From positions 1-64,000 of the forward strand of contig JAIOAU010000014.1 in assembly GCA_019873655.1 (NCBI GenBank): a stretch of DNA of 64,000 bases, in the 5' to 3' direction. Below are positions 22,122 through 37,561 of the stretch, in pieces. The position numbers and the translations under genes were made by a program. The stretch's first letter is position 1, and each line of letters opens with the position of its first letter. Source of the stretch: Chloroflexota bacterium (lineage in GTDB: Bacteria; Chloroflexota; Anaerolineae; Anaerolineales; Villigracilaceae). Below the pieces are notes generated by a model, which ran no database searches, was not told the DNA's origin, and saw nothing but the letters and a program-made list of their open reading frames with translations.

Positions 22122-22450
22122 GGCTTTAGAGAAGGGCTATCTGGAAAGCAGGGCGGCAAAGTATCTTGCGCCCTCTTGGCGAATTGGGAATATGCTCTGG
22201 CGCTCTTCGCGCGCCTTGGCGGTTTTCGAGACTTGGCGAATTTGGAATCTCTCTTGGCGTTCTCCGCGCCTTGGCGGTTTTCGAGACTTGGCGAATTTGG
22301 AATCTCTCTTGGCGTTCTCCGCGCCTTGGCGGTTTTCGAGACTTGGCGAATTTGGAATCTCTCTTGGCGTTCTCCGCGCCTTGGCGGTTTTCGAGACTTG
22401 GCGAATTTGGAATCTCTCTTGGCGTTCTCCGCGCCTTGGCGGTTCTTAAA
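22122..22450. repeat. 55-bp tandem array between convergent genes
   Basis: About four exact or near-exact copies of a 55-bp unit begin at 22216, 22271, 22326 and 22381, with a partial fifth at 22436. The unit contains TTGGCGAATTTGGAATCTCT and TTGGCGTTCTCCGCGCCTTG. A diverged copy precedes the array (about 22165-22215). It is the same element as the pair at 4411-4508. All three frames stay open through the array only because the unit lacks stops, so apparent proteins here are artefacts. The stretch holds no gene. Confidence 0.9.
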
Positions 22451-22903
22451 CTATTCCCTGTCGAAATGCAGCAATTCGAGAATGGTCCCCAATTGGGCGC
22501 TGGCGTCCAGATAAGCGTATTGGCCGCCGTCCCAGCCGCCGGACTGGATGACCTCGATCTCCTTCTGATTCAGGAAAGCGATCGCCTGTTGCAGATCGTT
22601 GACCTTGAAGGCGATGTGATGAATGCCCTCGCCTCGGGCGCGCAGGAATTCTTCCCAGGTGCTCGGCCCGCCGACCGGTTCGATCAGTTCCATCTGCACG
22701 CTTCCCAGGTCGAAGAAGGCGGCCTTGCCCTTTGCCTGGGAAGGCTGGCCCCGATAGACGGTATTGGCAAACGAATCGTGGGCGATCTCGACCACCTCGG
22801 GCAGGGGGATGCCGAACACCTCGGCATAGCGACGGGCGGCCCGGGCGACGTCGCGGACGACGATCCCGATTTGTACGACGGCATGATTGTCCAGTTTGTT
22901 CAT
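22451..22903 (-). CDS. VOC/glyoxalase-family protein (methylmalonyl-CoA epimerase-like)
   Basis: This protein has 150 residues with two beta-alpha-beta-beta-beta units of the vicinal-oxygen-chelate fold. Candidate metal ligands include the His in the first strand region (NKLDNHAVVQIGIVV), the Glu in VQMELIEPVG, the His of GIHHIAFKV and the Glu in GTILELLHF. The layout resembles methylmalonyl-CoA epimerase, but lactoylglutathione lyase-like enzymes share it and no mutase gene is nearby. It follows scpA by 16 bases on the same strand. Confidence 0.75.
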   Translation of the reverse strand: MNKLDNHAVVQIGIVVRDVARAARRYAEVFGIPLPEVVEIAHDSFANTVYRGQPSQAKGKAAFFDLGSVQMELIEPVGGPSTWEEFLRARGEGIHHIAFKVNDLQQAIAFLNQKEIEVIQSGGWDGGQYAYLDASAQLGTILELLHFDRE

Positions 22904-22919
22904 CCTTGCCTCGCCTGGT

Positions 22920-23684
22920 TCATTCGAATTCGATTTCCAGTTCTTCGTCTTCTTTCCAATCTTCCACTTTCTCAATCTCGATTTCCTGGAACAGCCCCTC
23001 CTGGTACGCGGCGACGCGGTAACGCTTGACCAGTTCGAGCAGGGCTAGGAACGTGACCACCACTTCCAGCCGGGAGGGTTTCTCGCCGAGCAGGCCGCGG
23101 AAGGTGGCGCGGCCTTCTTTTTGCAGCGCGGCGGCGATCCAGGCAATCTTTTCGCGGATGGTGATGCGCGGCGCTGCGATGACCGTCCCCAGCGCCTGCT
23201 TCTCCTGTTCCTCGGCAAAGACGGCCTGGGCCGCGGCCAGCAGATCGGCGAGGGTGACGTCCGAGAGGTCCAGGCGGCCTTCCACTTTGGGCGGCGGCGC
23301 GACCCGCAGATACGTCCGCAAATGTCGGTCTTCGCGCTCCTCCAGCCAGGCGGCCAGTTCCTTGAAGCGCTTGTAGATGCGCAACTGCCGGGCCAGCGAC
23401 TCGCCCACGTCTTCCTCGCCCGCCTCGCGCGCCGGCGGACGCGGCAGCAAGGCCTCCGATTTGATTTGCAGCAGTTTGGCCGCCACCACCAGGAAGGCCG
23501 AAATTTCGTCCGCCGGCACCTGCATCTGATGGATGTACTCCAGATACTGGTCGGTGACCGCCGCCAGCGCCACGGCGGTGATGTCCAGTTCGGCGCGCTC
23601 GATCAACTGCAGGAGCAGGTCGAGCGGTCCCTCGTAAACCGGAATGCTGACGGTGTAACCGCGGGCGAAACCATCTTGTTCCAT
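22920..23684 (-). CDS. scpA: segregation and condensation protein ScpA
   Basis: This kleisin subunit of 254 residues belongs to the SMC condensin complex. The N-terminus YEGPLDLLLQLIERAELDIT and the following helix ISAFLVVAAKLLQIKSEALLP are diagnostic, and the C-terminal winged helix binds the SMC head (FLALLELVKRYRVAAYQEGL). The start at 23684 was chosen by the family N-terminus. scpB and smc are not in the window. It is divergent from thrC across only 30 bases. Confidence 0.95.
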   Translation of the reverse strand: MEQDGFARGYTVSIPVYEGPLDLLLQLIERAELDITAVALAAVTDQYLEYIHQMQVPADEISAFLVVAAKLLQIKSEALLPRPPAREAGEEDVGESLARQLRIYKRFKELAAWLEEREDRHLRTYLRVAPPPKVEGRLDLSDVTLADLLAAAQAVFAEEQEKQALGTVIAAPRITIREKIAWIAAALQKEGRATFRGLLGEKPSRLEVVVTFLALLELVKRYRVAAYQEGLFQEIEIEKVEDWKEDEELEIEFE

Positions 23685-23695
23685 GGCGGGGAGAT

Positions 23696-23708
23696 TATAA
23701 CGTATAAT
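23696..23708 (+). promoter_or_regulatory. -10 elements immediately before thrC
   Basis: Two overlapping -10-like hexamers (TATAAC at 23696, TATAAT at 23703) end only 6-13 bases before the thrC ATG at 23715, and no Shine-Dalgarno is present. The transcript would be leaderless or nearly so. Confidence 0.4.
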
Positions 23709-23714
23709 TTGCCC

Positions 23715-24821
23715 ATGTCGCTCCCGGCCCCCGTTTGTCTCGATTGTCGGCAGCCCTATCCGGCGGAGGGGTTTCCCTGGCGCTGTCCGGCTTGCGGCGG
23801 CCTTTTCGATTACCCCGATCTCTGGACCTTCGACCCGGCCGCGGTGGATCGCGCCCAGCCGGGCGTTTTTCGCTACCGGCACACGTTTGGCCTTCCGCCA
23901 GACGCCTCGCCGGTCTCGCTCGGCGAGGGCGGGACGCCGCTCGTTTGGGCGCGGGTCTTCGGGAGGCAGGTTGCCTTCAAATGTGAATTTCTCAACCCGA
24001 CCGGTTCGTTCAAGGACCGCGGCTCGGCGTTGATCGTCACCTGGTTGACCCTGCGCGGGCAGACGGAGGCGGTCGAGGATTCGTCGGGGAACGCCGGAGC
24101 CTCATTTGCCGCTTACGCCGCCCGCGCCGGACTCCGCGCCCGTATTTTCGTCCCCGCCGCGGCCTCCGGCCCGAAGCGGGCGCACATCCTGGCCTGCGGC
24201 GCGGACCTGGTCCCGGTTGCCGGTTCGCGCGCCGACGTGGCCGAGGCCGTCCGCCGCGAGGCGGAGGCGGGCGCGGCCTATGCCAGTCATGCGGCGCTGC
24301 CGTTCAATCTGCCGGGCTATGCCACCGCGGCCTACGAAATCTTCGACCAGTTGGGCGGGGACATGCCGGGGGCGGTGGTTGTACCGGCGGGGCAGGGAGG
24401 GCTGTTGCTGGGACTGAGCCGCGGTTTCGCCGCGTTGCGTGTAGCCAACTCGGGGAAAAGGCAGTATAAAATTCCGCAGATGGTCGCGGTGCAGGCGCGG
24501 GCCTGCGCGCCGCTGTGGGCGGCGTTTGCGCGGCGGGAGGATGCGGCCCTGGCCGAACAGCCGACCCTGGCCGAGGGCGTGCGCGTCCTGCGGCCGCTGC
24601 GCGCCGAGGCGGTGCTGGCTGCCGTCGCCGTCAGCGGCGGGACGGTCGTTGCCGTCGAGGAGCAGGCCATTCTTCCGGGGCGCGACGCCCTGGCGCGGCT
24701 GGGATTCTACGTCGAGCCGACCTCCGCCCTCGTCTGGTCGGCGCTGGAGCAGGCGTTGCCGTCCTTGCCCGATCCGGTCGTGGTGGTGTTGACGGGATCG
24801 GGATATAAATATGCTGGCTAG
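23715..24821 (+). CDS. thrC: threonine synthase
   Basis: This PLP enzyme converts O-phosphohomoserine to threonine. It has 368 residues: an N-terminal zinc-ribbon-like C-x2-C pair (C8/C11 and C24/C27), the PLP Lys K100 in TGSFKDRGS, the substrate loop SSGNAGASFAAYAA and the phosphate-binding GQGGLLLG. This is the short class of threonine synthase. There is no ribosome-binding site, and the promoter sits directly upstream. Two genes downstream lies the giant aminotransferase/PEPC-like gene, which could act earlier in the aspartate family pathway. Confidence 0.92.
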   Translation: MSLPAPVCLDCRQPYPAEGFPWRCPACGGLFDYPDLWTFDPAAVDRAQPGVFRYRHTFGLPPDASPVSLGEGGTPLVWARVFGRQVAFKCEFLNPTGSFKDRGSALIVTWLTLRGQTEAVEDSSGNAGASFAAYAARAGLRARIFVPAAASGPKRAHILACGADLVPVAGSRADVAEAVRREAEAGAAYASHAALPFNLPGYATAAYEIFDQLGGDMPGAVVVPAGQGGLLLGLSRGFAALRVANSGKRQYKIPQMVAVQARACAPLWAAFARREDAALAEQPTLAEGVRVLRPLRAEAVLAAVAVSGGTVVAVEEQAILPGRDALARLGFYVEPTSALVWSALEQALPSLPDPVVVVLTGSGYKYAG

Positions 24822-24967
24822 GGTTGCGCAGCACTCTCAGAAACATTTAGGACGGTTGGGTGTTTTATGAGTTCAACGAGGGCGAGGCGGAATCCCTTGC
24901 CGCTGGACGGGCGCGACCGACTTTGCAGGAATGCGGTCAATCTGTTTCGAGTCAGGAGGCGTTGAAA

Positions 24968-25948
24968 ATGGAAACTGTTCTAATCGTTGCAATTTTGGCG
25001 CTGATGGTGATCGGCGGAGGACTCTTTGCGCTGCGCGTGCGTCCTCCCGATGCTCTGGTGCTGTTCGAGAAAAAGGGGAAAATCGAACTCCGGCGAGGAT
25101 GGTTGTATCCGCGCCATTTCAGCCTTCTTCTGAAGCGCGCTCCCCAGCCGATTCAACTGGACGTGGAGGCGGCTGCGTCCGGCAATTTGGGGGTCAGGGT
25201 CAAATTGGTCGGCTCGGTCGCTCCGGCGCTGGATCATTTGCAGGCGTTGGTGCGGGTGGGCGGCTGGAATGACGAGGCGGTCGCCCGAGCCGCCGAACAG
25301 GCCGGCATTTATCTGGAGGGATTGGTCAAGGAATACGCCGAACAGGCCGAAATTCAGGCGTTGTCGTCCAAAGGATTGACAGATTTTCTCGAGCAGCGGT
25401 CTGCCCAATTCCGCGAGCGCTTTGGCCTCGAGGTGATTTCGCTGGCGGTGCAATCTCTGGAGCCAGCCGACGCCGAGATTGCCGAAGCCTTGCGGCAGCA
25501 AGAACAAGCGCGTCTGCTGGAGCAGACCGAGAAACTCAACCACCAGGCCCGCGTCGCGGCGGCCAAGTCGAAGTATCAGGCCGATGAAGAGATTGCCGCA
25601 ATGGAGCATGCCCTGGCGTTGAAGAAAGTCGCTCTTCAGCAAGAATTGCTCGAGCAGGAGAATGCTTTGGCCCAAAAACGCCTGGAGGATGAGTTGGCTC
25701 GCAATCGCATGCGGCTGGCGTTCGAAAAGGAAGAACTGGCGGTTCTCAAAGAAACTCCGGAACTTCTGGTGTTGACTCCTCAGGCAGTTCGCCTGGCCGA
25801 GGCCAGTCAGAGCCTCAAAAATGCTCGCACGGTCATTGCCTTCTCGCCGCAAGATTTGGCTGGTTCGGACCTGCTCGAGTTCTTCCAGAAGATGCTCAAC
25901 CGGGCATTGGAAAAGAAAGAATCGACGCCCCCCGGCATAGCCGAATGA
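24968..25948 (+). CDS. SPFH/band-7-like membrane protein with coiled coil
   Basis: This protein has 326 residues: one N-terminal membrane anchor (about 2-21), a beta-rich domain (about 40-165) with LVKEYAEQAEIQALSSKGL and FGLEVISLAVQSLEP typical of SPFH/prohibitin-type domains, then a long charged coiled coil (about 180-270, rich in E, Q, A, K) as in flotillins. Such proteins form membrane scaffolds. The start at 24968 follows AGGAGG. The giant gene begins 46 bases downstream, which suggests co-transcription. I see no protease partner (such as NfeD) beside it. Confidence 0.75.
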   Translation: METVLIVAILALMVIGGGLFALRVRPPDALVLFEKKGKIELRRGWLYPRHFSLLLKRAPQPIQLDVEAAASGNLGVRVKLVGSVAPALDHLQALVRVGGWNDEAVARAAEQAGIYLEGLVKEYAEQAEIQALSSKGLTDFLEQRSAQFRERFGLEVISLAVQSLEPADAEIAEALRQQEQARLLEQTEKLNHQARVAAAKSKYQADEEIAAMEHALALKKVALQQELLEQENALAQKRLEDELARNRMRLAFEKEELAVLKETPELLVLTPQAVRLAEASQSLKNARTVIAFSPQDLAGSDLLEFFQKMLNRALEKKESTPPGIAE

Positions 25949-25994
25949 AAACGTTGGGCGGCGCGATTCCTATGGTCGCGAGGGCGCATTCTCT

Positions 25995-28900
25995 ATGGCG
26001 TATTCTGATCCCATGCACTTCTTTCGTTTGAAGCAGGTTCGCGTCGCGCGAGTCTCTGAGATCAGCGAGGCTACCGCCACTGCGCCGGTCTCGCCCGAGG
26101 AGCGGATCAACTTCCACATCGGCAATCCGTTGCAGGATCGACGTCTGTCCTCCGCTTTTTTGCGCGTTGCTCTGGGAATCGAGATCGGTCGGCAAGACCT
26201 CGCGGAGACGGATAGGCTGCTCGAACATTTGGGGTGGGGAGAGGCCGAGCGCGCCAAACTGGAATTTCTGGCGCGCCTGATCGAGCGAAGCGCTCCGTAC
26301 GCCCCGCGCGGCGGCTACAGCCGCAAAGCGCCCCATCCGCTGGTCAAACTGTTCACTCATTGGCTGGAAAATCAATCTGAGCCGCTGCGCTACAACCTCG
26401 AGGACCCGGCGGGTAAGCGCGAGATCATTCTGGCTTCGGGGGGCGTAGAGGAGACTTTGCGCGTCATTCTGACGGCGATTTCCCAATACTTGCAGGCGGG
26501 GCCGGCGCAGATTTTCTGCTATCGGCGCGATGTTCCCGCGTTCTGGAGCGAGATGCCCAATCTGCGGATCGAGTCGCTCCCCGCCGACGAGCGCGCCGCG
26601 CGCCGCGCCCTCGAAACCTGGTTTGTGCATCAGCCGGAGATTCCCACCTTCTTGATTGTGGGCGATGGGTTGAGTGAAGAGACGCGCCGCAAACTGCGCC
26701 TGCTGAGCATCCAGGCCCCGCTTTTTTTCCTGGAGGCCAACAACGCGCTCAATCAGCATTCGCTGGCCCGCGAAGCCCGTCTGATGCAGCGCGTCATTCG
26801 CCTGCTCACCCCCGCCATCTTTGCCCCCCAACTCGACGCGCTTTCGACTGTCTTTGTGATTGGCAACGCTGATTTCTTGAATGTCATTGAAAATGTACAT
26901 TTTCAGTTGAAGGGCACTCCTTCTTCTTCCGAGATCGAATACTTGCACTTTCTGCTGGAACAACAACTTCTGGAGACGCAACCGCCTTCCCACCCGGCCT
27001 TGACGGCCGGCGGCGACCCGCAGGAGGGGATCGAGAGCGGCGTTCCTGCGATCAACGCTTTCATGCATAATATCACGGACAGTAGCATATTTAGGGCGAA
27101 ATTGATCGAGAGCGGCGTTCCTGCGATCAACGCTTTCATGCAACTTTCCGCCCGGGCCGGCAAGCGGTTGGAGACTTTGATTCAAGACAAGGCCCAGACC
27201 GTCGGCCGCCTGACGGCCGTTTTCGAAGAGAAGATCGACCGCGCCGCGCGCCTCGTCTCGAAGCATAGCAGGGCGTTTTCTCTCGATCTGGTCGATGAGT
27301 TCGCGGGCCTCGATGCTCTGTCCTTGTTGAACGAGTTGGTCGTCAACGGGCACGACCCTCTCTGGCAGAAGCGTTTGCAGCGCAGTTTTCTGAGCGCGTT
27401 CGTTCGTCATCAACCGCACTATCGTCCTGAGGCCTGTCTGGTGACCAGCGGTTCCTCCCGCACGGCTCTGGGTTTGCTTGGTTTTCATTGTGGACTCACA
27501 GAGGTCGTCTTTCCCGATTTGAGTTGGTCGTATGAGCAGTGTTTTCCCAGGGTGCATGCTGTTCCCTTGACCGAAACGCTTGCTCTCGATGTGGATGCCA
27601 TCCTCGCGAAACTGAAGGCCCTTTGTCAGGCCGACCCGCGCTGGCCCGAACACGGGGCGCTGGCCATCAACAATCCCCATAACGCCACCGGCCGCATCTT
27701 TGCCGAGGCGGAGATGCGGCGCCTGATCGCCTGGTGCCTGCAACAGGGCATTTATGTGATTGACGACCTGGCGTATCAGAATGTCGCCCCGGTAGACGGC
27801 TTGCCGCTCATTCCCACCGCCCGCCAGATAGCCGATGATTTGGCGCGTCAGGGGATGCTCAACGAAGCCCAGGCGGAACGGGTGATCACCGTACATTCGA
27901 TGTCGAAGACGGACTGTCTGGCCGGGGCGCGCCTGTCGGTGGTCGAAATTCGCGAGGCGCGATTGCGGCAGCGGTTCGCAGAGATCAACGAACGCATTGT
28001 CCCCAATCTGGCCGCTATTTTTATTGGCTATTTGTTCTACCGCGGTCATCCGGAGGAGGCGCGCGCCTATTGGCGCTTGCGCAATGCCCTCTTCAAGGAA
28101 CGCAGCGAAGCCTTGCTGGCCGCGGTCGCCAATCTGCCCGCCGAGCGCAATCCCTTCGAATTGACCATCCTGCCCCCGGAAGGTAGTATGTATCCGCTGT
28201 TGCAGATCCGGCGCCTCCCCAACGGCCTTTCGCTCGATTGGCTGGCCTCGGCGCTGGCGCGGCGCGGAATTGGCCTGCTGCCTCTGGCGAGTTTTGCGCG
28301 CACCGAGAGGGGCTTTGATACGGGGCGCAGCACGTTTCGTCTCACGTTGGGCGGAAGCGACGACGCCGAGACCATGCAGGTAAAAGCGCGCCGTTTGTTG
28401 ATCGATTTGAACCGTTTGATCGAAGAGGAAGAAGCGCGTTACAACCGCCGGCAGTTGCGTTTTTCTCCCTTTTTGTCCGAACACGAAGCCCGTCTGACCT
28501 CCCGTTTGCAAATGTGGGATGACCTCGTCCAACAGATGACGAGATCCCTCGATCGTATCTCGGCTTCGAGCCCGATGGCCGATTTCCCTTCGCCGGAAAA
28601 CGCTCGCCTGCGCCAGGATTTTCTGAAGCGGTACTTGCCCGAGCGATTGAATCTGTTCCGGCAACGTTTGCGCGAACGGATGCTGGTCAGCGAGGCCGGG
28701 ATGCGCAAAGCCGCGCAGGACGGCCATTGGCTCGCCGAACGGCTGGAGCGCGAGTTCATGAAAGATTCGCTGGCCCGCCGGCAGGAATCTTTTCGTCTGC
28801 GCACCCATGATCGCACGGTGCATCCCACGCAAATGTATTCTCTCCAGGCAGAGATCGCCGTGGAGGCGATCCAGCGCGCCCTCGTCGCCGACCGCCCCGT

Positions 28901-31682
28901 TACTTCGGCGATGATCGAAAGGGCCGGCCAGGAATTGTGGCGCGAGTTTCTTGGACAGAACATCAGCATCGATTCTGAGCGCGAAGCCGATGAGATGTTG
29001 CTGGATTTCGATTCGCTCGTCGTTTGCGAGTCGTATGTCGAACAATTCGCCGATTCCCGCCTGCCGATCTTCCTCTCGTTTTGGAGCGACTGGGATGGGA
29101 CGAATCGCCCTTCGGGTCAGGGGCATCGGCTGGCCGCGTCTGCGGTCATGGAGAACGTACGTCGCATGGCCGGGATTCTGAGTCTCCTGCGTCGCGCGGC
29201 GCCTCAGTTGCCCCTTCCCCCCGATTTGCTGTCCGAACTGGAAAATTTGCCGAAACGGGCCGCGACGTTTCGCCGACTCTTGAACGACATCACCCAACTG
29301 ACCCATCAGTTGGAACAGCGCTACCGCGTTTATCTGCCTTACACTTTGATCGCCTCGCCTCTCCAACAGTTGGCCGTCCGTCTGCATCTGCGCCGCGATC
29401 CGGCTCAGGTGTTGTGGCAGCACAACGATCGCTACGAGCGAAAAATGCTCGAACTGCGCGCCCGCCGCCGCGTCATGTTGGAAGAATGGTTTGCCCTCAA
29501 TAAGAGATTGCGCAAACAACTCTACGCGCTCATTCCCGCCATCCAGGCCCATCGCGCTTCTGAATCGCTCCTGCGCGCCGCAGTGGAGTATTGCGATATT
29601 CTACAGCGGGTTGTCATTACCCCTCGTGTGCACCAGGCGATGATCACCTCGCGCGAACAGTTTGCAATCGACACCACCGCTTTCAACATGCAGGAGATCA
29701 ACGCGATCGCGGGCAAATACGGCAACCCCGGTCTGACGTTGGGATTGCAAATCAGCATGTCCAGCCGCGCCGAAGCGCTCATCGCCCTCGACCGAAAAAT
29801 GAACTCCCAGGCAGAACGCTTTCGGCGCGAATATCCGGGCGTCGAATTGCCCTCCATCTGGCTGATTCCGCTCTTCGAGGACATCGAGGCGGTTCAGCAA
29901 ATCCCCGATTACCTTGATCGTCTGTGGGATTATGCCGCCCAGACCCGTCACACCGACCAGACGCCGCAAGAACGACTCTCGGAGTTCCTGGCGGAAATTT
30001 TCATCGCTGGCTCCGACCTCAGTCAACAGATCGGCCAGGCGCATGGCGCGTTCGAGTACGCCCGAAGCAAACATCGGATTCAGACCTGGCTGGCCGAACA
30101 CGGCCTGACCGGATCGATTCGGCTCAAACTGGGCAGCGGCGAGCCGATGCAACGTCAGGGCGGCTATTATTCGTCCGTGGCCGGTCAGCCGGCCTTTCCC
30201 GATGCGGAGAAACAGCGCCGTCGGCTGGAGAGGAATCTGCCGCCTGCCGCTCAGCGCAGCACCGTCTATGCGGTGACGCCTCTACAGGGAGTTTTCTTGG
30301 GCGGCGATTTGCGCACCCTGCAAAGCAACCTCGCCGAACAGATGCGTTTCCTGCCCGTCGACGAGCGGGCCAATCTCCTCTATCACCTGCGGGAGAGTCA
30401 GCGATTGCACCGCCAGAACCTGACCCGCGCCGCCGAAACCTTGACCGAAAGCCGGCTGGGCAAGGGGCGCGGCGCCCAGGAAATGGAACGCCTGACGATG
30501 GGCCTGACCGAACCGCTCTACGAGGAATTTCTTCGAGACCTGACCGAGCACTTTCGCCATATCTTATATGGCAGACCCGAAGACGTTTTCGGACTGCACA
30601 TTGTTTCTTATTTCGTTGCTCGTTCTGTTCCACAACTGCGCGATCGCCTTCCCTCTCGATGGCGGCCGGTCCCCGGCCTTCATCGAGGTCAACAAATCGT
30701 CGCCCATGTGGCCGAGATGATTCCTCTTTGCAATCAGGGCAGCATGTTGCGCGCCATTGCCCACAATCAAGCCCAAACCGTCGTTTTGGGAATCAACCAG
30801 TTGACGACCGGCCTGTTCCGCGCCCTGGAATATTATGCGCAAAAGACGTTTTCAGAGACAGAACGCCACAGTTTGATCGCCGAACGCATTCTGCCGCGCC
30901 TGCCCGTCTATGAAATCCTGCATACCTTGCGCCTCTACCAGGATTGGCGCGGCGAAATCCTGCGCGGCGTCGAGACGGCTTTTCCGGCAGGACATTCCAC
31001 CCTGGTCGCCTTGCGCGAAGACCACGATGCCATGCTGCGTTTCCTGCCGCTCTTTCAGCAAGAATTGCTGCGGCGGCACGGCCTGAATGTCAGCGACTTC
31101 TTCAACAACGGTGTGTTCATTCCGGACCTGTTGCCCGCCCTGCGCCCCGACCTGGCTGTGCTCATGCAGGAAAATCTGTTCAACACCGACCTCGAACGGA
31201 TGCTTCAAAGAACCAGCGGGAAGGTGGACTCTCGCTGGCAGGCGGAAGTTGCTCGTCTCCTTGCCCTTCCAGAAAAAATCCGCCATTGGCGGCTGCAGAT
31301 TTGGGCGCTGATTGGCGATTCGATCTATCAGCGTGTGCAGAGTTTCACCGAACTGGCGATGGCTTTGCATGCTTTCTCGGCCGGCCGCTCTTCCCCGGCG
31401 CTGCGCTCCCCGGCGGCCGGAAGCCGCCTGCCCTCGGCGCTGACCGCCTTCCTGCGCTCGGCGCGCGTGGATGATGAAATGCGTCAATTCCTGGTGGGCG
31501 CTATGGAACAACTGCGCCAGATCACCGAAACCAGCATCGAAGTGCCGGTCAGCATCATCCGCGCCATCAACGATGTGGAACGGATTGCTCAGATCGAAGA
31601 AACTGCTTTGCCGCCGGAGAAGCAGGCTGCTCTGCGATTGTGTCTGTTGCAGATTGCAAGACTGACGGGCGAAAATGGCTGA
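25995..31682 (+). CDS. giant protein: aminotransferase fused to PEP-carboxylase-like region
   Basis: This protein has 1895 residues. Residues about 35-330 look like a degenerate fold-type I PLP transferase (INFHIGNP, ASGGVEETLRVI) with no PLP Lys. A linker (about 340-385) holds a duplicated segment. Residues about 395-810 form a full class I/II aminotransferase: TSGSSRT at 484-490, NPHNATG at 560-566, D590/Y594 and the PLP Lys K638 in HSMSKTDCLAG. The remaining 1080 residues recall PEP carboxylase: H943 in TVHPTQ, D1034 in DWDG, PLFE at 1292-1295, GSD at 1339-1341 and R1387-G1390 in a QRQGG that replaces the usual GRGG. The C-terminal 300 residues are unassigned. The aminotransferase call is firm; the PEPC-like call rests on motif order only. 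Confidence 0.75.
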   Translation: MAYSDPMHFFRLKQVRVARVSEISEATATAPVSPEERINFHIGNPLQDRRLSSAFLRVALGIEIGRQDLAETDRLLEHLGWGEAERAKLEFLARLIERSAPYAPRGGYSRKAPHPLVKLFTHWLENQSEPLRYNLEDPAGKREIILASGGVEETLRVILTAISQYLQAGPAQIFCYRRDVPAFWSEMPNLRIESLPADERAARRALETWFVHQPEIPTFLIVGDGLSEETRRKLRLLSIQAPLFFLEANNALNQHSLAREARLMQRVIRLLTPAIFAPQLDALSTVFVIGNADFLNVIENVHFQLKGTPSSSEIEYLHFLLEQQLLETQPPSHPALTAGGDPQEGIESGVPAINAFMHNITDSSIFRAKLIESGVPAINAFMQLSARAGKRLETLIQDKAQTVGRLTAVFEEKIDRAARLVSKHSRAFSLDLVDEFAGLDALSLLNELVVNGHDPLWQKRLQRSFLSAFVRHQPHYRPEACLVTSGSSRTALGLLGFHCGLTEVVFPDLSWSYEQCFPRVHAVPLTETLALDVDAILAKLKALCQADPRWPEHGALAINNPHNATGRIFAEAEMRRLIAWCLQQGIYVIDDLAYQNVAPVDGLPLIPTARQIADDLARQGMLNEAQAERVITVHSMSKTDCLAGARLSVVEIREARLRQRFAEINERIVPNLAAIFIGYLFYRGHPEEARAYWRLRNALFKERSEALLAAVANLPAERNPFELTILPPEGSMYPLLQIRRLPNGLSLDWLASALARRGIGLLPLASFARTERGFDTGRSTFRLTLGGSDDAETMQVKARRLLIDLNRLIEEEEARYNRRQLRFSPFLSEHEARLTSRLQMWDDLVQQMTRSLDRISASSPMADFPSPENARLRQDFLKRYLPERLNLFRQRLRERMLVSEAGMRKAAQDGHWLAERLEREFMKDSLARRQESFRLRTHDRTVHPTQMYSLQAEIAVEAIQRALVADRPVTSAMIERAGQELWREFLGQNISIDSEREADEMLLDFDSLVVCESYVEQFADSRLPIFLSFWSDWDGTNRPSGQGHRLAASAVMENVRRMAGILSLLRRAAPQLPLPPDLLSELENLPKRAATFRRLLNDITQLTHQLEQRYRVYLPYTLIASPLQQLAVRLHLRRDPAQVLWQHNDRYERKMLELRARRRVMLEEWFALNKRLRKQLYALIPAIQAHRASESLLRAAVEYCDILQRVVITPRVHQAMITSREQFAIDTTAFNMQEINAIAGKYGNPGLTLGLQISMSSRAEALIALDRKMNSQAERFRREYPGVELPSIWLIPLFEDIEAVQQIPDYLDRLWDYAAQTRHTDQTPQERLSEFLAEIFIAGSDLSQQIGQAHGAFEYARSKHRIQTWLAEHGLTGSIRLKLGSGEPMQRQGGYYSSVAGQPAFPDAEKQRRRLERNLPPAAQRSTVYAVTPLQGVFLGGDLRTLQSNLAEQMRFLPVDERANLLYHLRESQRLHRQNLTRAAETLTESRLGKGRGAQEMERLTMGLTEPLYEEFLRDLTEHFRHILYGRPEDVFGLHIVSYFVARSVPQLRDRLPSRWRPVPGLHRGQQIVAHVAEMIPLCNQGSMLRAIAHNQAQTVVLGINQLTTGLFRALEYYAQKTFSETERHSLIAERILPRLPVYEILHTLRLYQDWRGEILRGVETAFPAGHSTLVALREDHDAMLRFLPLFQQELLRRHGLNVSDFFNNGVFIPDLLPALRPDLAVLMQENLFNTDLERMLQRTSGKVDSRWQAEVARLLALPEKIRHWRLQIWALIGDSIYQRVQSFTELAMALHAFSAGRSSPALRSPAAGSRLPSALTAFLRSARVDDEMRQFLVGAMEQLRQITETSIEVPVSIIRAINDVERIAQIEETALPPEKQAALRLCLLQIARLTGENG
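27029..27142 (+). repeat. 39-bp direct repeat with AT-rich 36-bp core inside the giant gene
   Basis: Two identical 39-bp copies (27029-27067 and 27104-27142) are offset by exactly 75 bases, so the frame is kept. They encode IESGVPAINAFM twice. The 36 bases between are about 39% GC, far below the surrounding gene. This looks like a small in-frame duplication or insertion. Confidence 0.85.
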
Positions 31683-31792: not shown

Positions 31793-33490
31793 ATGACCCA
31801 CCGCGCCCGCTGGCTCGTCTCTCCGCCCATCACCCCTCAGGCCGACCAGGCTCTTTCCGAGTTCCCTCCCATTCTGCGCCAGATTCTCTTCAACCGCGGC
31901 TATGCAGACCCCGCGAAGGCGCGCGCCTTTCTGCAGGCCAAAACGATCTTCGATACGTCGCCCTTTCGATTGAAAGACATGGAACGGGTCGTCGCCCGCC
32001 TCCGCGGCGCTTTGGCGGCGGGAGAGCCGATCGCCATTTACGGCGACTACGATGTGGACGGCGTCACCGCCACCGCGTTGCTCGTCCAGACGCTGCGGGC
32101 GCTGGGCGGAAACGTGCGCCCCTACATTCCCAACCGCTTCGACGAGGGCTACGGATTGAACAGCGAGGCGCTCGAGACGCTGGCCGCCGAGGGGGTGAAA
32201 CTGGTCCTCAGCGTGGACTGCGGCATCCGTTCCCCGGCCGAGGCGGCCCGCGCCCGGACCCTCGGCCTGGACCTGATCGTCACCGACCACCATCATCCCG
32301 CCGAGGAACTGCCTCCCGCTTACGCCATCATCAATCCGAAACAGCCGGGCGACGACTATCCCGACAAAGACCTGGCCGGGGTGGGCGTGGCGTACAAGAT
32401 CGCCCAGGCCCTGCTGGACGGCTCGGCCGAGTCGGAGCGGCTGATTTCGCTGCTCGATCTGGTGGCGCTGGGGACGGTCGCCGACCTGGCCCCGCTGACG
32501 GGCGAGAACCGCGCCCTGGTGCGCCGCGGCCTGGAGCAGATGCGGGCGACCCGCCGCCAGGGGTTGTTCTCGCTGGCCAATGTGGCGGGCATTCCGCTGA
32601 AGACGGTCAACGCCACGCACATCGGTTTTATGCTCGGCCCGCGCCTCAACGCCGCCGGCCGGCTCGAATCGGCCCTGGCGGCCTATGAGTTGCTGACCAC
32701 CGAACAAGTCCAGCGGGCGGGCGAACTGGCCGTCAAACTCGATCAACAGAACCGCGAGCGTCAGGCCCTGACGCGCCGCATCCAGGCCGAGGCCGAGGCC
32801 CTGGCGCTGGCCGAGGATCCCGATTCGCCTCTCCTGTTTGCCGTGCATCCAGACTTCAATCCGGGCGTCGTCGGGCTGGCGGCGGCCCGTCTGACGGAGG
32901 CGTATTATCGTCCGGCGGTGGTCGGGCAGAGAGGCGAGGAGGTCACCCGTTGCTCGTGCCGCTCGATCCCGGAGTTTCACATCACCGAGGCGCTGGATGC
33001 GTGCCGCGATTTGCTCGTGCGGCATGGCGGACACGCCGCCGCGGCCGGTTTCACCGTCCGCAATGAGAATCTGGGCGAGTTGAAAGCCCGCCTCAAGGCG
33101 ATCGCTGCCGAGCGGCTGGGCGGACTCGATCTGCGCCCGACGCTGGCCGCCGACGCCGAGGTCCCGCTGGCCGAGTTGCGCCCCGACCTGCTCAAATACC
33201 TCGATCTGTTGCAGCCGACCGGTTACGGCAACCCGGAGGCGGTGTTCGTCGCCCGCGGCGTGCGCGTCCAGAGCAGCCGCGTCGTCGGCGCGGACGGCCA
33301 GCACCTGAAACTGACCGTCAGCGACGGGCGGCTCACCTTTGACGCCATCGGCTTCCGTCTGGGGCATTTGCAGGCCGCGCTCCCGCCGCGCCTCGACTTG
33401 CTGTTCACTTTCGAGATGAACGAGTACAACGGGCGCGCCAGTCTGCAACTCAATCTCAAGGACATCAAACCGGCCGGGGAGCCCGATTGA
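31793..33490 (+). CDS. recJ: single-stranded-DNA exonuclease RecJ
   Basis: This 5'-3' single-strand exonuclease acts in recombination and mismatch repair. It has 565 residues. DHH-family motifs are DYDVDG at 85-90, SVDCGI, D165-H168 (TDHHHP), VALGTVADLAPL and GPRLNAAGR. The DHHA1 motif GGHAAAAGF comes later, and a C-terminal OB-like domain follows. Start at 31793 was chosen by the family N-terminus (WLVSPPI). The gap of 110 bases from the giant gene is small, but transcription may be separate. Confidence 0.95.
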   Translation: MTHRARWLVSPPITPQADQALSEFPPILRQILFNRGYADPAKARAFLQAKTIFDTSPFRLKDMERVVARLRGALAAGEPIAIYGDYDVDGVTATALLVQTLRALGGNVRPYIPNRFDEGYGLNSEALETLAAEGVKLVLSVDCGIRSPAEAARARTLGLDLIVTDHHHPAEELPPAYAIINPKQPGDDYPDKDLAGVGVAYKIAQALLDGSAESERLISLLDLVALGTVADLAPLTGENRALVRRGLEQMRATRRQGLFSLANVAGIPLKTVNATHIGFMLGPRLNAAGRLESALAAYELLTTEQVQRAGELAVKLDQQNRERQALTRRIQAEAEALALAEDPDSPLLFAVHPDFNPGVVGLAAARLTEAYYRPAVVGQRGEEVTRCSCRSIPEFHITEALDACRDLLVRHGGHAAAAGFTVRNENLGELKARLKAIAAERLGGLDLRPTLAADAEVPLAELRPDLLKYLDLLQPTGYGNPEAVFVARGVRVQSSRVVGADGQHLKLTVSDGRLTFDAIGFRLGHLQAALPPRLDLLFTFEMNEYNGRASLQLNLKDIKPAGEPD

Positions 33491-33547
33491 CAATTTGCTC
33501 CAAGGGGAGGAGGAAAGCATCGAATTTCACGAATGTCCCGAACCCTT

Positions 33548-33748
33548 TTCGTAAAATTCGTGTCATTCGGTGCCGAAAAACAGCAACGCGCTCGCGCGCA
33601 GCGAAGAGCCCGTTTCCTTCGAGGAAACGGGCTCTTCGGCCTCTGGCCTTCGCGGCGCTCCCACCAGACGCCGTTATAACGTCCCAAATTTATTTCGTAG
33701 AATTCGTGTCATTCGATGCCAAAAAACAGCAACGCGCTCGCGCGCAGC
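33548..33748. repeat. duplicated 55-bp element flanking a perfect hairpin
   Basis: Two 55-bp direct copies (33548-33602 and 33694-33748) differ at only three positions. Both carry ATTCGTGTCATTCG, a word of the same AATTCGTG family as the array at 63041-63519, followed by CAGCAACGCGCTCGCGCGCA. Between them lies a perfect 15-bp hairpin. No gene is in this gap. Confidence 0.85.
33603..33637. terminator. perfect 15-bp hairpin between convergent genes
   Basis: GAAGAGCCCGTTTCC (33603-33617) pairs perfectly with 33623-33637 across loop TTCGA. It lies between recJ and the convergent glycosyltransferase gene. There is no T tail, so its terminator function is uncertain. Confidence 0.5.
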
Positions 33749-33765
33749 CTAAAAGTCGAATCAGG

Positions 33766-34449
33766 TCAATCCACGAACCGGTATTTGATCAGCGTCCAGA
33801 CAGCGACGAAGGCGTCCTTCATCCGGATTTTCTTGCCCTCCGAGTAATCGCGCGGATGGAAGGAGATCGGCACCTCGTAGATGCGCCACTTGCGTTTCAG
33901 GACTTTGGCGGTGAATTCGGGTTCGAAGTCGAAGCGCCTGGCGTGGAGGGGCATGTCGGCCACCACTTCGCGCCGGAAGACTTTGTAGCCGGTTTCCATA
34001 TCGGTCAGGATGTTGTTGTAGAGGATGTTGGTCAGCAGGGTGAGCAGTTTGTTGGCGACCATGTTCCAGAACAGGATGGCGCGGTGGGGCGCGCCGAGGA
34101 AGCGCGATCCGTACACCACGTCGGCCAGGCCGTCTGCGATAGGCTGGAGCAGGCAGGGATATTCGCGCGGATCGTATTCCAGGTCGGCGTCCTGGATGAG
34201 CAGGACCTCGCCGCGCGCCGCCGTCATTCCAGTGCGGACGGCGGCCCCTTTGCCCTGATTCTTTTCGTGGAGCAAAACGCGCAGGTCGTCCCCCTTGTCC
34301 AGCGCGGCGAGCCGCTCGCGGGTCCCGTCGGTGGAGCCGTCGTCCACGACGATGATTTCGTCGGCCAGGCAGGTGGCCCGCACGCGGCGGATGATTTCTT
34401 CGATGCTGTTGACTTCGTTATAGACAGGGATGATGACGGAGAGTTTCAT
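33766..34449 (-). CDS. GT2 glycosyltransferase (dolichol-phosphate mannosyltransferase-like)
   Basis: This GT-A transferase of 227 residues has no membrane domain. The N-terminus SVIIPVYNEVNSIEEIIRRV, VVDDGSTDGT, the DxD-like IQDADLEYDP, and GSRFLG plus ETGYKVFRREV are typical of polyprenyl-phosphate sugar transferases that make lipid-linked mannose or glucose donors. Start at 34449 was chosen because KLSVIIP is the family start. It is divergent from the AAA ATPase gene. Confidence 0.88.
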   Translation of the reverse strand: MKLSVIIPVYNEVNSIEEIIRRVRATCLADEIIVVDDGSTDGTRERLAALDKGDDLRVLLHEKNQGKGAAVRTGMTAARGEVLLIQDADLEYDPREYPCLLQPIADGLADVVYGSRFLGAPHRAILFWNMVANKLLTLLTNILYNNILTDMETGYKVFRREVVADMPLHARRFDFEPEFTAKVLKRKWRIYEVPISFHPRDYSEGKKIRMKDAFVAVWTLIKYRFVD

Positions 34450-34496
34450 AAAACGATTATAAACGAAATCCGTCTGTGAGAAAAAAGCCGCCGTGC

Positions 34497-35864: not shown

Positions 35865-36614
35865 ATGCTCGATTGGCCTCGTCCGGCAGTCATTGCCCAT
35901 CGCGGCGCCTCGGCGCATGCGCCGGAGAACACCCTGGCGGCCTTCGAACTGGCCGTCCAGCAGGGGGCGGATGCCGTCGAGTTCGATGTCAAATTGACCG
36001 CCGACGGCCAGGTGGTCGTCTTGCACGACCAGACCGTGGACCGGACGACCGACGGCCGCGGCGACCTGCGCGCCTTTTCGCTGGCCGCGCTGCGCGAACT
36101 GGACGCCGGGGCGCGTTTCTCCGAGCAGTTTCGCGGCCAGCGCGTCCCGACCCTGGAGGAGGTCTTCGAGACGGTCGGCCGGCGCGTCCGCATGAACATT
36201 GAGTTGACGAATTACGCCACCCCCCTGGATTCGCTGGTGCCCGCGGTGGTCGCCCTGGTGCGCCGTTTTGGGCTGGAAAAGCAGGTGTTGTTCTCGTCTT
36301 TCTTCCCGCACAACCTGCGGCAGGCGAAGCGCCTCTTGCCGGAAGTCCCCTGCGGCCTCTTGACCTGGGCCGGCTGGATGGGCTGGTGGGGGCGCGCGGT
36401 CGGCTTCCGCGCCGGGGTGTATCAGGCGATTCATCCGAACTTGCAAGATGTGGATGCGGCCCGGGTGAGGCGCTGGCAGGCGGCGGGGCGGCGCGTCCAC
36501 GTTTGGACGGTCAACGCCGAGGCCGATCTGGCGCGCCTGTTCGCTGAGGGCGTTGACGGGGTCTTTACGGATGACCCGGCCCTGGCCTTGCGTCTGCTGG
36601 GGAGGGGGAAATGA
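35865..36614 (+). CDS. glycerophosphodiester phosphodiesterase
   Basis: This GDPD-family TIM barrel of 249 residues hydrolyses glycerophosphodiesters to glycerol-3-phosphate and an alcohol. Motifs are IAHRGASAHAPENTLAAF (catalytic His), VEFDVKLTADGQVVVLHD (metal ligands and second His) and the barrel-closing HVWTVNAEADLARL followed by GVDGVFTDDP. There is no signal peptide, so it should act in the cytosol. The start at 35865 lies 2 bases after the ATPase stop, and the gene overlaps the next by 4 bases (ATGA), giving a three-gene operon. Confidence 0.93.
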   Translation: MLDWPRPAVIAHRGASAHAPENTLAAFELAVQQGADAVEFDVKLTADGQVVVLHDQTVDRTTDGRGDLRAFSLAALRELDAGARFSEQFRGQRVPTLEEVFETVGRRVRMNIELTNYATPLDSLVPAVVALVRRFGLEKQVLFSSFFPHNLRQAKRLLPEVPCGLLTWAGWMGWWGRAVGFRAGVYQAIHPNLQDVDAARVRRWQAAGRRVHVWTVNAEADLARLFAEGVDGVFTDDPALALRLLGRGK

Positions 36615-37561
36615 TTCCGGCGGAGTGGCTCGATCAAGCCGCGTTGCGCATAGCCCCTCACATTCGGCGGACGTTGCTGACCAACGACGCCGAATTGAAT
36701 CTGTATTTGAAGTGGGAAAATCAGCAGGTGACGGGGTCGTTCAAGGCGCGCGGGGCGTTGAACAAGGTGTTGTCGTTGCAGCCCTGGGAACGCCAGGCGG
36801 GCCTGGTGACCGCTTCGGCGGGCAATCACGGTCAGGGTGTGGCGCTGGCCGGCCGCTTGACCGGCGCGCCGGTGATCGTCTTTGCCTCGGCCCATGCCGC
36901 GCCGGTCAAACTGGAGGCCATGCGCGCCCTGGGCGCGGAAGTCCGGCTGGTGGAGGGCGGCTACGACGAGGCCGAACGGACGGCGCTCCGCTTTGCCGCC
37001 GAGAGCGGCCGGACGTGGGTCTCGGCCTACAATGACGGCCAGGTGATTGCCGGTCAGGGGACGATCGGCCTGGAAATGATTGCCGATTTGCCGCCCGATG
37101 CGGCCCCGACCTGGCTGGTGCCGGTCAGCGGCGGCGGGTTGATCGCCGGAATCGGCGCGGCGCTGCAGCGTCTCTCGCCGCGGCCGCGGCTGGTGGGGGT
37201 TCAGGCGGAGGCTTCGGCTTTCATGCACGCCCTCTTCTATCGCGGCACGCAGGAGGGCGTTCCCGATTTGCCCACCCTGGCCGACGGCCTGAGCGGGGCG
37301 GTCGAACCGGGGTCGGTCACCATCCCGCTGGTGAAAGAACTGGTGGACGAGATCATTCTGGTCAACGAGGCCGAGATCGAAAGGGCCGTTGCTTTTGCCT
37401 GGCGTCGTTATCAGCAGCGCATCGAGGGGTCGGCGGCGGTGGTCCTGGCGGCTGTCTTGAGCGGCAAGGTCAAGGGTCCGGCCGCGCTGGTGATCTCCGG
37501 CGGGAATATTCAGCCCGAAATCCATGCCGCGATTTGCGCTTCGAATCAGGAGGAAAGGTGA
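36611..37561 (+). CDS. threonine/serine dehydratase-like PLP enzyme
   Basis: This fold-type II PLP enzyme of 316 residues is close to catabolic threonine dehydratase and serine racemase. The PLP Lys is K45 in TGSFKARGALNK, the substrate loop is SAGNHGQG, the phosphate loop is SGGGLIAG and the C-terminal turn is ISGGNIQ. It lacks the regulatory ACT domain of biosynthetic IlvA. The start overlaps the phosphodiesterase stop by 4 bases. Whether threonine, serine or a hydroxyaspartate is the substrate is open. Confidence 0.88.
   Translation: MIPAEWLDQAALRIAPHIRRTLLTNDAELNLYLKWENQQVTGSFKARGALNKVLSLQPWERQAGLVTASAGNHGQGVALAGRLTGAPVIVFASAHAAPVKLEAMRALGAEVRLVEGGYDEAERTALRFAAESGRTWVSAYNDGQVIAGQGTIGLEMIADLPPDAAPTWLVPVSGGGLIAGIGAALQRLSPRPRLVGVQAEASAFMHALFYRGTQEGVPDLPTLADGLSGAVEPGSVTIPLVKELVDEIILVNEAEIERAVAFAWRRYQQRIEGSAAVVLAAVLSGKVKGPAALVISGGNIQPEIHAAICASNQEER

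Follow-up and report, generated by a model that had tools for sequence, protein, structure and literature searches.

Four main types of PEP carboxylase (PEPC) are recognised in a recent review, which describes the reaction as three steps: formation of carboxyphosphate and enolate, release of CO2, and addition of CO2 to the enolate (PMC8100219). In the Flaveria enzyme, four residues, K600 among them, make up the bicarbonate site (PMC6363079), and R450 and R767 are reported to be essential for activity (PMC6363079 and a paper cited there). From a constant offset of 54 we infer that Flaveria K600, R450 and R767 correspond to K546, R396 and R713 of the E. coli enzyme. Aminotransferases of fold type I are dimers. 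Known SPFH/Band-7 proteins, in turn, pair with a protease or with NfeD.

We have analysed a 64,000-nucleotide stretch of DNA from a Chloroflexota bacterium (the window), in which a predicted aminotransferase and a PEPC-like part lie on one giant polypeptide, encoded behind the gene for a candidate SPFH/Band-7-like protein. A preliminary description of this DNA had picked out the giant gene; the upstream gene was absent from its account.

Results

The giant gene and its relatives

The giant gene occupies positions 25995-31682 of the + strand. As first described, it is one uninterrupted ORF, which starts with ATG, has no internal stop and encodes 1895 amino acids; it is present in a single copy in its own genome (3.0 Mb, 45 contigs). 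Reading of the ORF together with full-length relatives gives a fusion of three predicted parts, all on the + strand: an aminotransferase-like N-terminal half (residues 1-345; 25995-27029), a class I/II aminotransferase domain (residues 390-815; 27162-28439) and a divergent PEPC homologue (residues 816-1895; 28440-31679). The motif positions given earlier all proved correct when the sequence was read again: NPHNATG at 560-566, HSMSK with K638, HPT at 943-945, DWDG at 1032-1035, PLFE at 1292-1295, GSD at 1339-1341 and QRQGG at 1386-1390. That these motifs are not due to chance follows from N560, K638, H943, D1034, E1295, D1341 and R1387, none of which varies across 33 full-length homologues drawn from two lineages. 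Pfam recognised a single domain in the whole protein, Aminotran_1_2 (PF00155), at residues 475-790 (E 3.4e-17). An antisense ORF of 1218 aa (25896-29552) overlaps this strongly conserved coding frame and was rejected as a GC-rich shadow frame.

Alignment of relatives also revealed an in-frame insertion of 25 codons in the variable linker (27030-27143, + strand), containing a 38-bp exact direct repeat with a repeat spacing of 75 bp. Among the proteins aligned it occurs only in that of the window, and no second copy of its sequence was found elsewhere in the window genome. An assembly artefact may be one origin of the insertion.

Relatives are encoded at 27 loci in GTDB genome contigs, most of them at full length, and the hosts are nearly all MAGs named Anaerolineae, Anaerolineales or Chloroflexi. 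The gene is rare and patchy within the class, being held by 10 of 298 genomes in the class sample (G000, G137, G109, G127, G232, G179, G129, G237, G274 and G085). Clade 1 comprises 24 full-length proteins including that of the window, with 55-72% identity to the window protein and a mean column identity of 74%. A copy was also found at locus L041 (contig JAOAFT010000005.1), whose MAG is labelled 'Bacteroidetes bacterium SKW296', and a second lineage, known by this MAG name, was defined through the GTDB family to which the MAG belongs. Relatives are present in 12 of the 32 genomes of that family, SKW296 itself counted. Nine full-length proteins, at 49-52% identity and with open frames 1869-1961 codons long, group with full support as a clade of their own (clade 2); a distribution confined to the Anaerolineae was rejected after these second-lineage relatives turned up. 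L041 branches at the base of the Chloroflexota proteins, whereas other members of its family hold clade 2, and its placement may reflect transfer or mis-binning.

The 24 clade-1 proteins, the window's among them, and the nine of clade 2 make up the 33-sequence set in which invariance was scored. The three-part layout proposed in the preliminary description is supported, as all 33 proteins share it over a range of 49-72% identity. A search for homologues with the same domain order found the parts fused in every relative, and never as separate genes. At L007/L043 the giant gene lies in two frames near residue 1500, and it is also split at L152; on these MAG contigs the split may represent sequencing error or real disruption. 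At three loci of the second lineage (L145, L147 and L148) the giant gene and its upstream partner adjoin a DNA-gyrase-A-like gene, a setting unlike that in Chloroflexota.

The aminotransferase and the N-terminal half

With residues 390-815, Foldseek found ACC synthase and LysN at an E of about 1e-14, with aspartate aminotransferases close behind, to about 1e-12. An hhalign comparison with the window genome's own aminotransferases gave 94.6%, and the AF2 model of residues 1-815 is fair (pTM 0.73). The fold is of type I, and the class I/II active site is represented by its PLP-binding lysine (K638; 27906-27908, + strand), its Asn, Asp and Tyr, and both of its Arg; N560, H562, D590, D591, Y594, K638, R646 and R782 do not vary in any of the 33 proteins. 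On the sequence and the model, residues 390-815 are a class I/II aminotransferase domain with all mapped catalytic residues intact, and the Pfam match, the fold search and the invariant catalytic residues bear out the earlier description of it as complete.

In the AF2 model, residues 1-345 have the strand order of the large domain, but lysine is absent at the PLP position and the small domain is absent; 59 residues of this half are invariant in the 33 homologues. According to DSSP, seven strands start at about residues 144, 171, 190, 218, 243, 266 and 287, and the matching strands of the second copy at 481, 503, 519, 554, 587, 630 and 647, the strand order of the two copies being compared by eye on the DSSP string. 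Profile searches and hhalign, including those with the 33-sequence alignment, found no significant sequence or profile similarity between residues 1-345 and aminotransferases. Profile searches of PDB sequences returned nothing real for this half or for the C-terminal part; a BMP receptor match (E 0.38) was discarded as chance. The Lys-less second copy suggested in the preliminary description is thus matched by the predicted order of strands and helices and not by a significant sequence comparison, and on the model residues 1-345 are likely to be a pseudo-copy of the aminotransferase. Given that such aminotransferases form dimers, the Lys-less half could be the dimer partner of the catalytic copy within the same polypeptide.

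Homology of the C-terminal part to PEPC

The window protein matched no Pfam PEPC model at E 1, and none of the Pfam families found in the 24 clade-1 members was PF00311; PEPcase_2 (PF14010) matched two of the 24, with a best E of 0.0015. The AF2 model of the C-terminal part is poor (pLDDT 52, pTM 0.47). When this low-confidence model was compared with 350,542 PDB chains by Foldseek, only 3zge_B, a PEPC, passed E 0.001 (E 1.7e-4), the next match being at 0.14. We take 3zge, an entry on C4 carbon fixation, to be the Flaveria PEPC. In hmmsearch, a profile of 25 Anaerolineae PEPCs matched the window protein with an E of 4.5e-5, the database searched being small (24 sequences), and the match fell in the region from PLFE to the glycine-rich loop. 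A profile of Anaerolineae archaeal-type PEPCs found nothing significant in the giant proteins. Alignment of the C-terminal profile to PEPC by hhalign in local mode was weak (score 31.2, E 0.02), with 1 of 120 shuffles scoring as high, and the deeper two-lineage alignment brought a small gain (E 0.0088); the probabilities in these comparisons were 2-5%.

For mapping of the active site, E. coli PEPC from NC_000913 was used as the reference, and three MAFFT modes gave one agreed map. Eight of the 11 active-site positions were conserved and identical, compared with a maximum of five in 80 block-shuffles. The number of invariant columns shared with PEPC was 38, compared with 21.9 +/- 3.9 in 80 block-shuffles (maximum 33). 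Taking the sequence comparisons and the model together, PEPC homology of residues 816-1895 is well supported but not proven. The PEPC-derived C-terminus proposed earlier is upheld by the active-site alignment, which goes beyond the shuffles, and by a structure-based search in which PEPC was the only significant PDB match to the low-confidence model; the likeness lies below Pfam detection.

Active-site residues

The map pairs E. coli H138 with H943, R396 with R1133, E506 with E1295, D543 with D1341, K546 with Q1344, H579 with L1379, R581 with S1381, R587 with R1387, R699 with R1551, R713 with R1586 and G883 with G1895, and the C-terminal ENG of the giant protein resembles the NTG of PEPC. On the PEP/metal side, the equivalents of H138, E506, D543, R587, R699 and R713 are kept in all 33 proteins. 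In the window these include, on the + strand, H943 (28821-28823), E1295 of PLFE (29877-29879) and D1341 of GSD (30015-30017), the last two corresponding to metal ligands in PEPC, and R1586 in LRAI (30750-30752). At three positions none of the 33 proteins retains the PEPC residue: K546 has become Q, H579 L or M, and R581 S or C. The glycine-rich loop at residues 1379-1390 (LGSGEPMQRQGG; 30129-30164, + strand) keeps only R587, as R1387, from among H579, R581 and R587, which confirms the altered GRGG motif of the preliminary description. R1133 is Ala in eight of the nine clade-2 proteins and the adjacent R1134 is nearly invariant, and the assignment of the R396 equivalent is uncertain.

Across both lineages, 239 of the 1080 positions of the PEPC-like part are invariant, which argues against decay; the alignments show strict purifying selection on the giant protein in the two lineages. 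Ordinary PEP carboxylation is unlikely, since K546, H579 and R581 are replaced in every sequence. Retention of the PEP/metal side, combined with loss of K546 and two glycine-rich-loop residues in every member, argues instead for a changed reaction, and a site in which the metal pair is kept could still stabilise an enolate. Since two lineages far apart from each other have both conserved residues of the active site, the giant protein is likely to have an activity that can be found.

The upstream gene

Neighbour clustering at about 30 loci gave only one conserved neighbour, a gene directly upstream on the same strand. In the window it lies at 24860-25948 (+ strand), with a likely start Met at 24968, and it appears to encode a hydrophobic N-terminal anchor, an SPFH/Band-7-like domain and a coiled coil. 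This partner was found by tblastn in every clade-1 locus with upstream DNA and in all ten such clade-2 loci. Its apparent loss at L036, L048, L054, L144 and L149 was rejected, as a longer antisense or overlapping ORF had hidden the gene and tblastn recovered it. The two genes are separated by 46 bases in the window; the gaps that were measured range overall from 8 bases to a few hundred, and at some loci the genes abut. All eight partner-bearing genomes in the class sample (298 genomes) also carry the giant gene. The two genes show correlated divergence (Mantel r 0.92, 0 of 2000 permutations), a result that is not specific, since joint inheritance alone would produce it.

Band_7 (PF01145) matched 11 of 22 partner members at E < 1, with a best E of 0.0036, and hhalign against the SPFH proteins of the same genome gave an E of 0.0013 and a probability of 18.5%. 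These matches weakly suggest a membrane-anchored SPFH/Band-7-like protein.

Other neighbours and ordinary PEPC

The preliminary description had tied the fusion to the aspartate pathway through thrC. This link fails: among the roughly 30 loci, only that of the window has thrC as a neighbour, and the directly upstream gene is the sole one conserved. As neither thrC nor recJ is a conserved neighbour, both were rejected as parts of the system. The ORF at 23121-24821, a threonine-synthase-like PALP enzyme, has about 200 extra N-terminal residues ahead of the recognised region, and translation may really begin at an internal site. Another PALP enzyme in the window, which resembles threonine/serine dehydratases (36611-37561), adjoins a glycerophosphodiester phosphodiesterase. 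Two other ORFs near the giant gene, at 22166-23029 (287 aa) and 33487-34479 (330 aa), had no significant Pfam or NCBIfam match.

No Pfam PEPC was found in the window genome, and no ordinary PEPC was seen in G000, G179 and G274; it occurs alongside the giant gene in 7 of the 10 holder genomes of the class sample. In the window's family most genomes are without ordinary PEPC, and most of those are without the giant protein too. The fusion was therefore rejected as a stand-in for a missing PEPC: it mostly occurs together with PEPC, and within the family a lack of PEPC mostly goes with a lack of the fusion.

Discussion

We favour the interpretation that a conserved two-gene cassette produces a bifunctional enzyme, docked at the membrane, in which a PEPC barrel has been repurposed, and put its probability at about 0.5. 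The aminotransferase would make or consume a 2-oxo acid, and the PEPC-derived barrel would perform Mg-enolate chemistry on that acid or a related one, rather than bicarbonate-dependent PEP carboxylation. The SPFH-like protein, through its single N-terminal membrane anchor, would dock the giant enzyme at the membrane. The weak hhalign alignment and the poor AF2 model of the C-terminal part count against this interpretation, as do the weak sequence likeness of the partner to SPFH proteins and the uncertain R396 equivalent. We suggest more tentatively that the proteins represent a separate PEPC-superfamily lineage with non-carboxylating or differently carboxylating enolate chemistry, an intramolecular aminotransferase heterodimer, and a membrane assembly held by a dedicated SPFH-like protein.

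Loss of three PEPC active-site residues in all members would also be expected if the PEPC-like part were catalytically dead and acted in allosteric sensing or as a scaffold for assembly, with the aminotransferase as the sole enzyme, and the Lys-less N-terminus suggests that the protein already bears one non-catalytic copy. We nevertheless regard this as unlikely, because the E1295/D1341 metal pair, H943, R1387, R1551 and R1586 are invariant in both lineages, which exceeds what a scaffold should need. The proposal in the preliminary description, in which the C-terminus retains the carboxylation of PEP and the oxaloacetate formed is converted to aspartate by the aminotransferase on the same chain, draws on the retained equivalents of H138, E506, D543, R587, R699 and R713 and on a window genome without a Pfam PEPC. 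It does not accommodate the replacement of K546, H579 and R581 in 33 of 33 proteins, the first of these being equivalent to K600 of the Flaveria bicarbonate site (PMC6363079). Ordinary PEPC is, moreover, also present in 7 of 10 holder genomes, most PEPC-less members of the family are without the giant protein as well, and thrC is not a conserved neighbour, so that we give the proposal little credence. It is very improbable that residues 816-1895 are unrelated to PEPC and that the order of their motifs is a coincidence. The window protein has no PEPcase Pfam match, the C-terminal profile matches no PDB sequence and hhalign to PEPC is weak, all as coincidence would predict, but PEPC is the sole significant fold match, the active-site null test exceeds the shuffles, two members match PEPcase_2 (best E 0.0015), and the C-terminal Gly and LRAI are conserved.

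The SPFH-like gene and the giant gene form a real, conserved and apparently undescribed two-gene system. The preliminary description knew of no enzyme with this layout; in the open-access literature we likewise found no paper on it, or on the combination of aminotransferase, PEPC-like part and SPFH-like protein. If the membrane-docked, repurposed enzyme that we favour is real, it would represent a further, strongly altered PEPC lineage, with a changed active site and joined to a transaminase and a membrane scaffold. The giant protein would then show how nature can adapt a core carbon-fixing fold to a different reaction, and would let the passage of a substrate within a single, very large bacterial protein be tested.

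Compared with bacterial and plant PEPC (PF00311, EC 4.1.1.31), the giant protein has collinear HPT, PLFE, SD, Arg587, R699, LRAI (R713) and C-terminal Gly. It differs in the changes K546 to Q, H579 to L/M and R581 to S/C, in having no PF00311 match, and in the fusion of its PEPC-like part behind an aminotransferase. Archaeal-type PEPC (PF14010) gives a weak profile match in two members (best E 0.0015), but is itself a stand-alone protein of about 500 aa. With class I/II aminotransferases of fold type I (PF00155) the giant protein shares the predicted fold and all mapped catalytic residues, whereas its domain follows a Lys-less copy within a chain of 1895 aa and carries NPHNATG where the usual form is NPxNPTG. 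The partner resembles SPFH/Band-7 proteins (stomatin, flotillin, HflC; PF01145) in its N-terminal membrane anchor, the register of the domain and the coiled coil after it; unlike the known proteins, it has only sub-threshold Pfam matches and is paired with a giant enzyme.
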